Virus record (IMG/VR): IMGVR_UViG_3300045973_000059
Span: 1 to 40,620 of that record
From: a virus
Length of the DNA: 40,620 nucleotides
Reading direction: 5' to 3' (one strand)
Positions 17,366 to 25,144 of this stretch are shown in pieces. The notes below the pieces were generated by a model. That model made no database searches, was not told where the DNA came from, and was given only the letters and a program-made list of their open reading frames with translations. Numbering within the stretch: the first letter of the stretch is position 1; every line of letters begins with the position of its first letter. The translations under genes were made by a program, and so were the position numbers.

Positions 17366-17893
17366 TTAACTCTTGAGGATTTTGAGAAGATGATTCGTCT
17401 GGTGAATGGCATCGTCCAGAGCGTTGTGGTAGGTACCCTTGCGTTCGTCCTCTGGAAGCTTGACAATCTCCTTCATGGTACGATAGCATCGATCATGCCA
17501 GTACTTCCATGGACGAGTCAATCCAACCGCTTCATATGCATTGGCGATAATTACGTTGTCAAAGCTGGCTCCACAACCCCACGTTGGTAGTGAAGTTGTT
17601 CCATACCACATGGAGAACTTTCTGAGTGCCGCCGTAAGGGGGATGGCATCTTTGCGAAGGGAATCCATCACTTCGCGTGGCTGGCTGGCCCACCACTCTA
17701 CTGTGGCCGCACTAATCTCCAATCCAGCCGCCTTACACGAACGCGCATCAACAGTGCAATAGAACGTGTCCACAAGGGGGTTTGGAGCATCATCGTTGAG
17801 AGAAAACTTCACGGCTCCGATGGAAACGATGGCGGCATTTGATGCGGTACTCATTGTTTCTAAGTCCAACATCACGTTTAGCAGTCTACTCAT
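17366..17893 (-). CDS. dexA: DEDD 3'-5' exonuclease, DexA-like
   Basis: A 175-residue exonuclease of the DnaQ-like superfamily, nearest to T4 DexA in layout. Motif I is VMLDLETMSTASNAAIVSIG (7-26; D10, E12). Motif II is WGCGASFDNVIIANAYEA, with the catalytic Asp of FDN. Motif III is TYHNALDDAIHQTNHLL, with His and Asp of HNALDD. T4 DexA digests single-stranded DNA 3'-5'. It is shorter than T4 DexA (227 residues). The start overlaps the end of gene 55 (ATGA). It lies in the recombination cluster with 46 and 47, which fits a role in DNA degradation or end trimming. Confidence 0.85.
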   Translation of the reverse strand: MSRLLNVMLDLETMSTASNAAIVSIGAVKFSLNDDAPNPLVDTFYCTVDARSCKAAGLEISAATVEWWASQPREVMDSLRKDAIPLTAALRKFSMWYGTTSLPTWGCGASFDNVIIANAYEAVGLTRPWKYWHDRCYRTMKEIVKLPEDERKGTYHNALDDAIHQTNHLLKILKS

Positions 17894-18450
17894 AGCGATC
17901 CTCTCTTAGTTGTTTTGTTCATGTATTTGGGGCGTCTGACCATATCTGGGGACTTCTCTCGTTCTTCTGTCAACTCCACTGTTGCCAATGCTACCTGTCC
18001 CTTCAAGTAGTCGATATAGGGGGTTTCGTAATTACCCTCATCGTGGGCTTGTCTGATAATGTCATCAACACCCAATGTTTCGATGTATCGATACTTGGTG
18101 CTGAGTTGACGCTTTTCTTTTTGGATTCTGCGAACAAAAGCATACCACACAATCTGGCTAAAATATCCAAACGCATTTTTGTTCTTCGTCTTCTTTGGGT
18201 TGAAGTTGTTGACATAGATGAGGCAATTCTCAATCCCATCTGATATCATTTCATCTAGAAATGTATAGTTATTGAAGTTGGGTCTATACGACATGTTGGT
18301 TGCGATCTTTATGAAACAGTCACCAAGATATTCCGAAATCCGTGGTTCTTCTTCTTTCAGTCTCTTGGCCCGTCGAACGGCCACCCCATGCTTACACAAC
18401 TCATTATAGAACTTTTCGTTATCCAGATAATGGGTTCGTTCCTTTTTCAT
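17890..18450 (-). CDS. 55: Late transcription sigma factor, gp55
   Basis: A 186-residue homologue of T4 gp55 (185 residues), the small sigma-like protein that directs host RNA polymerase to TATAAATA late promoters. The central block IKIATNMSYRPNFNNYTFLD, then ISDGIENCLIYVNNFNP, then KNKNAFGYFSQIVWYAFVRR, then IQKEKRQLSTKYRYIE is the degenerate sigma region 2 that contacts core polymerase and the promoter. The C-terminus is basic (RRPKYMNKTTKRGSL) where T4 gp55 has the clamp-binding tail. The ATG has AAGGAG upstream. The presence of exact TATAAATA boxes before the structural genes in this window is independent support. Confidence 0.95.
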   Translation of the reverse strand: MKKERTHYLDNEKFYNELCKHGVAVRRAKRLKEEEPRISEYLGDCFIKIATNMSYRPNFNNYTFLDEMISDGIENCLIYVNNFNPKKTKNKNAFGYFSQIVWYAFVRRIQKEKRQLSTKYRYIETLGVDDIIRQAHDEGNYETPYIDYLKGQVALATVELTEEREKSPDMVRRPKYMNKTTKRGSL

Positions 18451-18462
18451 ACGGCTCCTTGG

Positions 18463-20404: not shown

Positions 20405-20838
20405 CCACCACTCTGGAACTTGACAAATTCAAACGCCGTCTTGATATCCCATCCTCGACTCTTGACAGATACCAAGATGGATTCCAAACAGTAGATCGTG
20501 TTCTTCAGGTAATCATACTTGTCCTGCAATTTGATCACCTCTTCATCACTGGCAATCAACTCTTCCAAGTCAGCTTTCATGGGGCGTTTCTTGAGGTATG
20601 GCATCCAACTCAATGCCTTCAACTCTTCCTCCGACAACTCTCCCAAATACCAACTTTTCTTATTACGTCGAAGGCGAAGATACTCACCCTCACAATTTCG
20701 CGCTTGCTTTTTGGTCTGCATCAACAAGTCCAAATACTTACCATGAAGCCGTGGCACATTGGCCGCTTCCCCACCCAAGTTCAACTCATTGATCAGGCAA
20801 TCTTTCTTCCATTCGTCCTGAATCTCTTGTAGCGTCAT
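20401..20838 (-). CDS. uvsY: UvsY recombination mediator
   Basis: A 145-residue protein (T4 UvsY has 137). UvsY loads UvsX onto gp32-coated single-stranded DNA. The N-terminus MTLQEIQDEWKKDCLINELN matches T4 MRLEDLQEELKKDVFIDSTK in pattern, and the C-terminal SRGWDIKTAFEFVKFQSGG matches the T4 SRGFAIKHIQDMRAFEAGK. Between them is a helical segment rich in Lys, Arg and Glu, as expected for the DNA-binding hexamer. It is the first gene behind the strong sigma-70-type promoter at 20868-20896 and is coupled to uvsW by an ATGA overlap. Confidence 0.9.
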   Translation of the reverse strand: MTLQEIQDEWKKDCLINELNLGGEAANVPRLHGKYLDLLMQTKKQARNCEGEYLRLRRNKKSWYLGELSEEELKALSWMPYLKKRPMKADLEELIASDEEVIKLQDKYDYLKNTIYCLESILVSVKSRGWDIKTAFEFVKFQSGG

Positions 20839-20867
20839 ACTGAATCCCTCTTCATGTTATACTGTGA

Positions 20868-20896
20868 ATAATACACCACAACAAGCCCCTTGTCAA
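20868..20896 (-). promoter_or_regulatory. Strong sigma-70-type promoter for the uvsY-to-replication operon
   Basis: TTGACA (20891-20896), a spacer of exactly 17 and TATTAT (20868-20873) make this the best consensus promoter for minus-strand genes in the window. It lies 30 bases before the uvsY ATG and probably drives the whole run down to 7510, since no terminator is visible between. The -35 box lies inside a perfect 15-base palindrome. Confidence 0.85.
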
Positions 20897-20900
20897 GGGG
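20886..20900. repeat. 15-base perfect palindrome over the uvsY promoter -35 box
   Basis: CCCCTTG and CAAGGGG flank a single central base and contain the -35 hexamer. Half or more of the same motif (CCCCTTGACAA) occurs at the -35 boxes at 855-860 and 21547-21552. It is a good candidate operator for a dimeric repressor, although part of the conservation is simply the TTGACA consensus. Confidence 0.5.
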
Positions 20901-20922
20901 TTCCCTACAAGTTTCTAGGGGT

Positions 20923-21513
20923 TTACCCTACAACGTCAAACGAGAAGTGACGGAATTTGAATTCGACGGTTGCTTGAAAATAATCTGGATTGTCTACCGT
21001 AGAGTCAAACTCTAGGGCCGACAGAGAGACAGGGAAGCAATCATAGTAGGTGAAGGTGGCAATGGGCATGTTGTTCGATCCCAAGACCAACAGGGTGGCA
21101 TCACTTAGCTGTGGGCCTTCCGTCTGGTGAGCCACTACAGGGAAGCGATATGCCTGACCCTCAATAAGGTCGATGAACTCCTGCCGTGTCTGGGGAAAGC
21201 CCAACCCGATCATCCAGTTGTACAGTTCGTAATAATCGCCCAACGTTTCCTGAATCATGAACTTCAGAGAAAGATTTCCGTATTCCAGCTTTTCACCCGG
21301 ATGAGGCATATCATAGAAAGGAGTGTGCTGTACTGCCACACCAAGGGTGATATCAGGGATATTGGCACTTTGGACGAAATACGTCACTTTAGGCAGTATT
21401 TGGATCAGAAATCTAAAGCCGTTGGGTCGTAAGAAGTTGATATCACTAGGGTTACGCTGATCCCACTGTAGCTCTGATATGTCTACTTTCTGTCTACTGG
21501 TATTTGTTCCCAT
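20923..21513 (-). CDS. Tail-tube-like structural protein
   Basis: A 196-residue protein resembling T4-type tube proteins (gp19 and the baseplate-proximal gp48/gp54 group). It has an N-terminal segment with NGFRFLIQILPKVTYFVQSA, then GEKLEYGNLSLKFMIQETLG, then YYELYNWMIGLGFP. It closes with LSALEFDSTVDNPDYFQATVEFKF, the layout by which tube proteins close their beta-barrel. The true gp19 is at 29682-30251, so this is a second tube-fold protein, perhaps a tail-tube initiator, terminator or baseplate protein. It follows the capsid gene, where T4 has gene 24, and a late box at 21630-21637 precedes it. AGGGA lies upstream of the ATG. Confidence 0.6.
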   Translation of the reverse strand: MGTNTSRQKVDISELQWDQRNPSDINFLRPNGFRFLIQILPKVTYFVQSANIPDITLGVAVQHTPFYDMPHPGEKLEYGNLSLKFMIQETLGDYYELYNWMIGLGFPQTRQEFIDLIEGQAYRFPVVAHQTEGPQLSDATLLVLGSNNMPIATFTYYDCFPVSLSALEFDSTVDNPDYFQATVEFKFRHFSFDVVG

Positions 21514-21546
21514 GAAAGTTCCCTGAAGAAAGTTTGCCGTACCCCC

Positions 21547-21575
21547 TTGACAAGATCAGAAAAGAGGGGTATACT
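21547..21575 (+). promoter_or_regulatory. Plus-strand sigma-70-type promoter with no gene behind it
   Basis: TTGACA (21547-21552), a spacer of exactly 17 and TATACT (21570-21575), preceded by CCCCC. The match is as good as the uvsY promoter, yet it points toward higher coordinates, against every gene in the window. Transcription would start near 21582 and enter the 3' side of the capsid gene unless stopped at the hairpin at 21663-21688. Confidence 0.65.
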
Positions 21576-21629
21576 ACTGTGTCCCCGTTGAATGACTCAC
21601 TAGATGGTTGAGGACAAGTAGTGCAAAGG

Positions 21630-21637
21630 TATTTATA
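21630..21637 (-). promoter_or_regulatory. T4-type late promoter box
   Basis: An exact TATAAATA on the minus strand lies between the capsid terminator and the tail-tube-like gene at 20923-21513. It is about 117 bases from that ATG, giving a leader of roughly 100 bases that overlaps the plus-strand promoter at 21547-21575. Confidence 0.7.
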
Positions 21638-21658
21638 GCTTCTCAATATACAGAACGG

Positions 21659-21688
21659 AAAAAGGGACACCCCAATCGGAGTGTCCCT
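21659..21688 (-). terminator. Rho-independent terminator after gene 23
   Basis: On the minus strand AGGGACAC and GTGTCCCT form an eight-base perfect stem around a ten-base loop. A run of five T follows (the last stem base plus four beyond it). It lies 40 bases past the capsid stop and separates the head operon from the late promoter of the next gene. Confidence 0.85.
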
Positions 21689-21727
21689 GTTTCGTGGTCT
21701 GTGTCTGAGCCAAGCCCACAGAGTTGA

Positions 21728-23035
21728 TTACATAAGGTTCGTAACCTTGACCTTACGGAAGTACTGGTTAGCACCAGCCGTGAATGTCATTGCATCAGGT
21801 GCGCCTGTCTGCAAACCGTTGGTTGTGACGAACGGGTTGCTGACCATTCCGTAACGAGTCTTGAAGCCAATCTTCGGCTGGAAGCTGTTCGGGTCAGTTG
21901 CGCGTACCATCTGAAGCGGAACGTATGGGCAGTAGAAGATACCAGCGTCATACGGGGTCTTGCCCTTGTAGCCGACAACGTAGAACTGTGAAGCGGCTGA
22001 AATGTTCGCGCTGTATGGGTCAATGAAGACCTTGAAGCGGCCATTCAACACACCAGCGAACGTGTTGCCAGTGTCATCGATTTCGAGGTTGTTGGTCAAG
22101 CCAGTTGCGTAATCCAACTTGCCAGCCATTGCCAACGCTGAACCAACGTCTGCCGACACGATGATAAAGTTACCCTTACCACGACGGGTTTGCTGGCCGA
22201 TAACGTTTGCATCTCGTTCGATCTGGAACATCAAGCCCTTGAAACGCTCAACACTCCAACGACCATTTGAGTCAACGTCAAGATTGAAGGTACCCGGAAC
22301 TGCGGTTGAAGCGGCACCGACCTTGGCGACCTTGTAGATGGTACGAACGACTTCACGATTGATTTCCGCAAGCATTTCCTGCGAAAGGATGTTGCTCAAC
22401 TCGCCTTCGGCGTCAGCACCGTGGACAGCCTTCAAGTCCTGTGCCAATTCGATGGTGTACTCACCCTTCAAGGCGCGAGACAAAGCGGTTACTGAAGTCT
22501 TTTCGATGCTGAAAGTCATTTCAGCAAAGACGCCACCAGCACCACCTGTTCCCAAAGCTTCGGCGTCAGCCGTTGGCATACCAGTACCAGTGGTGTACGG
22601 GTTACCGTCCACAGGGTTGGTTCCAACGTGTGTGCCTGTACCAGCGAAATCGGTATCAGCTTCGTTGAACAAAGCTTCAATACCAGTGTTGCTACGATCC
22701 GTACCATACTTGCTCTTCAGTGCGAAGATCAAACCTGTCGGGCCTGTCATGGGCTGTACGCCGCAAATGTCATAGGCCATCAAGTTTGGCAACGAACGAC
22801 GGACAAGCGAGATAAGAATAGGATCATACTTATCGATACCAGCCGTTGACGAAATGTTGTTAGCTGGCGCATCTTCTGAAAGCATCTGTTCCTGATTCTT
22901 AGCTTCGCGGAACTGATTCTCTAGTACGATGGTCGTAACGTCACGACGGTACTGACTTGTGATAGGCGCAAACTTGTCATTGGTAAGTACTGGCTCCCAA
23001 CGCTTGTCATAGCCTTTCTCTTCGATTAGATACAT
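21728..23035 (-). CDS. 23: Major capsid protein, gp23
   Basis: A 435-residue HK97-fold capsid protein of the T4 type (T4 gp23 has 521). Recognisable blocks are YDPILISLVRRSLPNLMAYD, CGVQPMTGPTGLIFALKSKY, NRFKVYIDPY-like GRFKVFIDPY, YKGKTPYDAGIFYCPYVPLQ, and PKIGFKTRYGMVSNPF near the C-terminus. The N-terminal 54 residues look like the delta-piece removed by gp21. MLSE followed by DAPANN (51-60) fits the L-x-E cleavage rule. The ATG has AAGGAG upstream and a CATAAATA late box at 23077-23084. A terminator follows the stop. No separate vertex protein gene (T4 gene 24) is next to it. Confidence 0.98.
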   Translation of the reverse strand: MYLIEEKGYDKRWEPVLTNDKFAPITSQYRRDVTTIVLENQFREAKNQEQMLSEDAPANNISSTAGIDKYDPILISLVRRSLPNLMAYDICGVQPMTGPTGLIFALKSKYGTDRSNTGIEALFNEADTDFAGTGTHVGTNPVDGNPYTTGTGMPTADAEALGTGGAGGVFAEMTFSIEKTSVTALSRALKGEYTIELAQDLKAVHGADAEGELSNILSQEMLAEINREVVRTIYKVAKVGAASTAVPGTFNLDVDSNGRWSVERFKGLMFQIERDANVIGQQTRRGKGNFIIVSADVGSALAMAGKLDYATGLTNNLEIDDTGNTFAGVLNGRFKVFIDPYSANISAASQFYVVGYKGKTPYDAGIFYCPYVPLQMVRATDPNSFQPKIGFKTRYGMVSNPFVTTNGLQTGAPDAMTFTAGANQYFRKVKVTNLM

Positions 23036-24481: not shown

Positions 24482-25144
24482 CTACTTCCCCTCTATGCTC
24501 TTCAAAAACTTCGATAAAGCGATCATTTTCACTTCGGCCAATTGCTGTTTTTTGGCCTTCATAATCATTTCTTTTACTTCTTCCTGCTCCTGCATTGTCC
24601 ACGAACCCTTCTTTACGTCGAAGAACCATTCTCTACCTTCCATAATTCCACGAACAAAGGCATCTGGGGCTGAAGGATCAGCGACGATATCAGCGGCAGT
24701 AGCCAGATAGAAGTCATTTTGAACTTCGTTGATTCCATCAGAGTTCATCTTCAAGGTTCCCAACCCACGGGATGAAACACCAAACTTGGCACCCTCATCA
24801 ATGAACGTCTTAACAATACGCCCCATAGGGGTATCCATAACCTTGGCTCGCCCAATGAAGTTGTTGCCGTCTTCCTTGAGAGATACAATCATATGAGAGA
24901 CACGATCCAAATTGATGGTGGGGCCATCCGGGTGTCCTAGTTCACCAAAGGCTCTCTTGGCATTCACATATTGTTCATTATAGAGAGCCACCTTTTCACG
25001 CAACATATCAGCGGGATAGAATCGCTTATTGCGATTGGGAATACCACCCTGAAGATAGATGCCTTCAATGAAGTAACTTTTGTCAGCACCCTTACCTTCG
25101 GTGATAACCTGTACTTCTTCATTAAGCTCTTGAATGATTTTCAT
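24482..25144 (-). CDS. 21: Prohead maturation protease, gp21
   Basis: A 220-residue serine protease (T4 gp21 has 212) that assembles in the prohead core and cleaves scaffold and capsid proteins. YFIEGIYLQGGIPNRNKRFY opens the domain. FGELGHPDGPTINLDRVSHM (66-85) holds the catalytic His71, and KFGVSSRGLGTL (120-131) holds the nucleophile Ser. The later APDAFVRGIMEGREWFFDV is also family-typical. The C-terminus KFLKSIEGK is likely the autocleavage tail. The start lies two bases after the preceding gene. No residue essential to the family looks missing. Confidence 0.96.
   Translation of the reverse strand: MKIIQELNEEVQVITEGKGADKSYFIEGIYLQGGIPNRNKRFYPADMLREKVALYNEQYVNAKRAFGELGHPDGPTINLDRVSHMIVSLKEDGNNFIGRAKVMDTPMGRIVKTFIDEGAKFGVSSRGLGTLKMNSDGINEVQNDFYLATAADIVADPSAPDAFVRGIMEGREWFFDVKKGSWTMQEQEEVKEMIMKAKKQQLAEVKMIALSKFLKSIEGK

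Follow-up and report, generated by a model that had tools for sequence, protein, structure and literature searches.

The stretch of DNA analysed here, a complete viral record of 40,620 bases that we refer to as the window, carries a near-consensus σ70 promoter (TTGACA-N17-TATACT, 21547-21575, plus strand) in the gap between the major capsid gene gp23 and a gene 3-like tail gene, where it faces the late promoter of gene 3 and the terminator of gp23. Comparison with related genomes indicates that this site is one member of a conserved and usually single-copy opposing promoter that is distributed across marine and freshwater T4-like phages. The element appears normally to lie just upstream of gp55, which encodes the late sigma factor, and in the window phage to have moved next to the capsid gene. 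We give roughly even chances to the explanation that it is an early promoter, used by the host polymerase, that makes an antisense RNA against the late gene block and interferes with late-gene expression. The features of the window that bear on this analysis are the following.

21547-21552, plus strand: -35 hexamer TTGACA of the opposing promoter, of which TTGAC is invariant in 12 aligned copies from the gp23-gp3 gap
21570-21575, plus strand: -10 hexamer TATACT, placed after a 17-nt spacer
21576-21595, plus strand: start block ACTGTGTCCCCGTTGAATGA, present as a single copy in the window and with an imperfect dyad
21580-21582, plus strand: TGT at the predicted transcription start (+1 at about 21581-21582), invariant in the 12-copy alignment
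21582-21692, plus strand: putative antisense RNA reaching to the shared hairpin, of predicted length (fold z = -2.45)
21630-21637, minus strand: late promoter TATAAATA of the gene 3-like tail protein, which the putative opposing transcript would cross head-on
21663-21688, minus strand: 11-bp terminator hairpin of gp23, possibly a bidirectional terminator
21728-23035, minus strand: gp23, major capsid protein (PHROG 138, E = 3e-150)
20923-21513, minus strand: tail tube or gp3-like tail completion gene, downstream of gp23 (PHROG 45; the syntenic gene is annotated tail completion/gp3 in named phages)
20868-20896, minus strand: σ70 promoter of uvsY, TTGACA-17-TATTAT, with its -35 inside the palindrome CCCCTTGACAAGGGG (20900-20886)
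18451-18462, no strand: 12-nt gap upstream of gp55 (17890-18450, minus strand), too short for the element found there in most relatives

All neighbours that could be identified by family (gp20, gp21, gp22, gp23, the tail tube/gp3-like gene, uvsY and uvsW), including the portal, protease, scaffold and capsid genes, are on the minus strand, in agreement with an earlier sequence-only reading that the promoter opposes the genes around it. As is the case for a cis-antisense promoter, the site reads against the minus-strand genes of its block and no supported plus-strand gene lies downstream.

The opposing promoter has the TTGACA/TATAAT-like hexamers, 16-18 nt apart, that define the σ70 class: it scores 11/12 with a 17-nt spacer, and on the plus strand its TATACT is followed by ACTGTGTCCCC. 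It is one of the two best matches between 15000 and 28000. The second site with 11/12 is the uvsY promoter (minus strand, 20896-20868), and the window phage therefore seems to use this promoter type. The -35 hexamer of the uvsY promoter falls within a perfect 15-bp palindrome, CCCCTTGACAAGGGG, at 20886-20900 of the window, and the window holds more CTTGACAAG-like sites than expected (29 versus 12.7, one mismatch allowed). The pattern TTGACA-N15..19-TATANT occurs nowhere else in the contig. A slightly looser σ70 pattern yields two sites in the window against 0.71 expected, and the addition of the TGT start leaves one site against 0.14. Judged alone, then, the window promoter is only mildly unlikely and not far from chance, and two comparable sites against 0.71 expected would be compatible with a σ70-like match that is accidental or a relic without function. 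Since a single site matches at near chance level, conservation becomes the deciding question.

The gap between gp23 and gp3 was compared across 145 IMG/VR loci gathered by these two genes. Nucleotide searches of named phages returned only a capsid-gene match (71%) with the gap region and no match with the element of a close relative, and the more distant relatives were therefore sought through proteins and sequence patterns. An opposing promoter is present in the gap of all nearest relatives with the same gene order (L001, L002/L083, L003, L007, L061 and L081), as well as in relatives found by pattern scan (L161, L163, L168, L187 and L208); in the nearest relatives it takes the form TTGACW, a spacer of exactly 17 nt, and TAWACT or TAAAAT. 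When the window and its relatives are aligned, all 12 copies contain the opposing σ70 promoter. Mean column identity in this alignment, in which the aligner shifts the -10 of two sequences by one base, is 54%, and the invariant positions include the TTGAC of the -35, single positions of the -10 region, and the TGT beyond. The conserved TGT (21580-21582) stands where a start about 7 nt beyond the -10 is expected and coincides with the start near 21582 that had been predicted. The earlier claim of a strong, near-consensus plus-strand promoter is thus upheld as a sequence feature at 21547-21575, as is its conservation in relatives with the same gene order, and on this comparison we consider its identity as a σ70 promoter very probable. 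More distant relatives have a shorter gp23-gp3 gap, from which the opposing promoter is absent.

Two other features of this gap were noted in the relatives. Most of the nearest ones have a second CTTGACA within the spacer, 11 nt after the -35 or about one helical turn, which is absent from the window copy; it is seen in L002, L003, L061, L081, L146, L172 and others. Inserts of 1.5-2.8 kb lie between gp23 and gp3 in L033, L049/L097, L126 and L136/L138, and the gap may be an insertion hot spot; an insert in L046 (2323-3861) appears, by eye, to code for an IscU/NifU-like iron-sulphur scaffold protein.

A scan of IMG/VR with the doublet form of the pattern recovered 91 contigs, where only a few would be expected by chance (an estimate from pattern length rather than a computed value), and nearly all 91 carry a start block TATGTC or one resembling TATGTAG. 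In large contigs the doublet occupies the strand opposite to that of the other consensus promoters (10 versus 1 in G001, 9 versus 1 in G004, 7 versus 1 in G005 and 6 versus 1 in G006). G001 (150800-159400, L264) and G004 (108000-114500, L265) also contain a dense series of early promoters before small genes, of a very uniform extended form, cccTTGACAATTGGCA...TATACTGTATCCAtattgattgat. By synteny, many doublet copies are located just upstream of gp55 rather than gp23, and read away from it into an RNA-binding-like gene and uvsW. This wider group comprises cyanophages, pelagiphages, a methylophage and a Sinorhizobium phage. The opposing promoter of the gp55 gap is perfect (12/12) in HTVC008M, Mosig, S-CREM1 and phiN3 and scores 11/12 in Syn9, at 123697-123733 on the minus strand; Melnitz has a degenerate doublet.

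Two gp55 scans gave 166 loci, representing 142 distinct upstream regions of 300 nt. Of these regions, 94% reach a best antisense score of at least 10/12 and 82% one of at least 11, percentages that measure conservation among regions related by descent and not independent trials; the corresponding values are 9.6% and 0.5% for random windows of the same loci and 9.1% and 0.8% for Markov shuffles. The sense promoter of gp55 itself is also near consensus (at least 11/12 in 87%) and frequently adjoins the opposing one back to back, Syn9 and S-CREM1 being examples. The hexamers, their spacing, the TGT and the orientation are thus conserved across many phage lineages and at several positions, which strongly disfavours an accidental or relic match; we regard that explanation as barely credible.

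The place of the element differs between phages. Among loci that hold gp23, gp3, uvsY and gp55 and have a gp23-gp3 gap of less than 500 nt, the opposing promoter is found only at gp55 in 34 and only in the gp23-gp3 gap in five; no locus has both, and 14 have neither at threshold. Three of these 14 (L187, L208 and L210) carry an opposing promoter of score 9 in the gp23-gp3 gap, and in L189 the element is in the gap between gp3 and uvsY. The element thus keeps a constant direction, opposed to the late block, and changes location by up to about 3 kb. A role specific to the capsid message, as in the earlier suggestion that an antisense RNA could lower capsid mRNA, is unlikely because the place of the element changes: in most relatives the copy is about 3 kb away, upstream of gp55, and antisense to a small RNA-binding-like gene and uvsW. 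Second copies at other late genes likewise speak against it. Silencing of one particular gene is also unlikely, since the genes read against differ (gp23 and gp3 here, the RNA-binding-like gene and uvsW elsewhere). The observation exceeds the first claim with respect to the promoter and falls short of it with respect to regulation of the capsid gene.

The start region distinguishes the opposing promoter from the sense promoter of gp55. Of 104 distinct gp55-gap copies, 100 have a TGT 5-6 nt downstream of the -10, whereas none of 74 sense promoters of gp55 does; in the window the TGT is at offset 4, as in some other groups. The bases flanking the TGT in the gp55-gap set are complementary, and the arms differ between phages (for example AACGG-TGT-CCGTT, GGTCT-ATGT-AGACC, AGGC-ATGT-GCCT and AACTCT-GTA-AGGGTT). 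Across 63 distinct arm pairs the mean number of pairs is 4.97, compared with 3.98 in 500 permutations of the arms among sequences (sd 0.13, highest value 4.33), a test that replaced an initial count of hairpins since shuffled sequences often fold (69%). The dyad runs from directly after the -10 to about +8 and is centred on the predicted start; it is clear in most relatives and weak or imperfect in the window clade. A hairpin at the 5' end of the antisense RNA is ruled out by this span, because an RNA that began at +1 would be without one arm. The dyad could instead be a palindromic operator, or form a hairpin in the sense-strand transcript. A leaderless open reading frame from the conserved ATG of relatives was rejected by eye, as the reading frames differ and are very short.

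Several genomes (G017, Syn9, S-CREM1, Melnitz, G006 and phiN3) contain a second start block with the same or nearly the same letters and a different spacer, except in phiN3, where the spacer too is nearly the same. In phiN3 the two start blocks are identical over 18 nt (24982-24999, plus strand, and 159527-159544, minus strand) and have nearly identical promoters, the second copy being situated in a gap of 648 nt that precedes a ribonucleotide reductase gene and also opposing genes. Other second copies are antisense, at the 3' end of gp4 in G006/L201 and in the gp5-gp25 gap in G005, or, in cyanophages and Melnitz, sense promoters that serve small genes. A universal second copy was rejected, as HTVC008M, Mosig, G001 and G004 have one copy each.

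The shared letters within a genome suggest a shared factor that reads the sequence, since the same start block with a differing spacer is what a sequence-specific factor acting at both sites would give. Together with the covariation of the dyad arms between phages, the two-copy genomes would suit a start-centred operator for a phage DNA-binding protein, with regulated divergent transcription or autoregulation as the main function and the antisense RNA as a by-product. We consider this quite unlikely: HTVC008M, Mosig, G001 and G004 have a single copy, the gene beside the second copy varies, no candidate protein emerged, and the dyad is weak in the window clade.

The extent of the putative transcript was considered next to the hairpin shared with gp23. 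The sequence-only reading envisaged an RNA of about 110 bases. A hairpin with a T-run lies 100-130 nt downstream, in the opposing direction, in relatives of the window clade and could end an RNA of about 100-130 nt, so this part of the proposal is plausible for the clade; in the window itself the U-tract that follows the hairpin in the plus direction is poor (TGTTTCG), while it is good in relatives. A discrete short RNA is not general, however, as a terminator-like site follows within 250 nt in only 15 of 106 gp55-gap copies. For the same reason a discrete trans-acting small RNA of about 100-130 nt, ended by the shared hairpin, is improbable, even though the 5' 20 nt or so are conserved and duplicated elsewhere in some genomes: beyond about +30 the sequence is not conserved between positions, and a covariance-model search of 20800-22000 against Rfam gave no match up to E = 1.

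Each of the 12 window-clade copies that were scored has an ATAAATA late box 28-54 nt past the opposing -10, so that early antisense transcription would cross the late promoter of gene 3 head-on. Such a crossing makes it more likely that, in this clade, the promoter acts ahead of late transcription, by transcriptional interference or antisense pairing. No late promoter is found within 60 nt in any of 111 gp55-gap copies, and the common denominator would thus be an antisense RNA into the late block.

The preferred explanation, an early antisense promoter directed against the late block, can be set out as follows. Unmodified host σ70 RNA polymerase would start at the conserved TGT early in infection and transcribe against the late genes, yielding antisense RNA; in the window phage this RNA would cross the late promoter of gene 3 and the intergenic sequence as far as the terminator hairpin of gp23, or farther. 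Most likely, this activity would hinder expression of the late block until gp55-dependent late transcription takes over, either by antisense pairing or by polymerase traffic over the late promoter and the 3' ends. The dyad at the start, which is weak in the window and clear in most relatives, probably allows a phage factor to switch the promoter off. Phages with the element probably all make such an RNA early in infection. The antisense second copies, at the gp4 3' end and in the gp5-gp25 gap, again point into late genes; the copies that drive a small gene in the sense direction in cyanophages and Melnitz count against this explanation.

Alternatively, the element could be a replication origin at which the opposing promoter supplies an R-loop with its primer RNA, in the manner of oriG and oriF of T4 (the latter near uvsY), with UvsW removing it late. 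The T4 origins consist of a promoter with a σ70-type -10 and an unwinding element, and UvsW unwinds their R-loops (PMC3016281). The element supplies the promoter part: it is of the host-polymerase type, is present once or twice per genome, is not tied to a gene product, and in its main copy is always near uvsW, uvsY or gp55; a single theta origin has also been predicted for Syn9 (PMC2984593). The gp55-gap copies, however, have neither an AT-rich unwinding element downstream (AT mostly 0.62-0.73 against a background of 0.66) nor a purine-rich RNA (purine mostly 0.31-0.47), the GC skew of Syn9 makes no clear turn at the element, and some of the second copies serve small genes as ordinary sense promoters. 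An origin is therefore unlikely.

In more general terms, the observations may describe a regulatory or replication element that T4-like phages of the Kyanoviridae type share across the lineage, usually as a single copy. In it a host-sigma promoter would be joined to a start-centred dyad that diverges in sequence and is read by a phage factor; with fixed orientation and shifting position, the element would act as an early/late switch or as the main origin. This broader formulation is possible but tentative. If the element is transcribed, abundant marine and freshwater phages would share an antisense step at the boundary between the late structural genes and the gp55-recombination block, a step invisible to gene annotation. 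It would bear on the timing of late transcription in phages without MotA and Asi, or on the site at which their replication starts. The element is short, precisely placed, and present in the cultured phages Syn9, S-CREM1, HTVC008M, Mosig, Melnitz and phiN3.

A literature search of incomplete coverage found neither a description of the opposing element nor a Syn9 transcriptome paper. σ70-like motifs are known upstream of early genes in T4-like cyanophages (PMC2984593), and 31 early promoters have been predicted in Melnitz (PMC9004378). The opposing element shares hexamers, spacing and host polymerase with the early promoters of marine T4-like phages such as S-PM2 and Syn9 (PMC2984593). Ordinary early promoters, however, are upstream of genes on the coding strand, whereas the element faces genes and has a TGT block, found in 0/74 of the promoters of gp55 itself. 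It resembles T4 oriF and oriG in being a host-polymerase promoter near uvsY/uvsW whose protein product is not required (PMC3016281), and differs from them in having no AT-rich unwinding element; a conserved TGT or dyad at the start is not among the T4 origin features given in that source.

Antisense transcription is reported for Kyanoviridae in PMC10976474, which cites Stazic et al. 2016 on antisense transcription that protects phage mRNA from RNase E. That case likewise gives antisense RNA a role in the fate of phage mRNA, and the account of it in PMC10976474 describes no conserved promoter element. According to the account in PMC2984593, the one confirmed antisense RNA in T4-like cyanophages is CfrI, near psbA (Millard et al. 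2010, cited therein). CfrI of cyanophage S-PM2 is, like the RNA proposed here from sequence, an antisense RNA of a T4-like phage during infection. As described there, CfrI measures about 225 nt and maps to psbA and a homing endonuclease gene, whereas the opposing element is situated beside gp55 or gp23, shows conservation in many groups of phages, and has a promoter and start block of its own.
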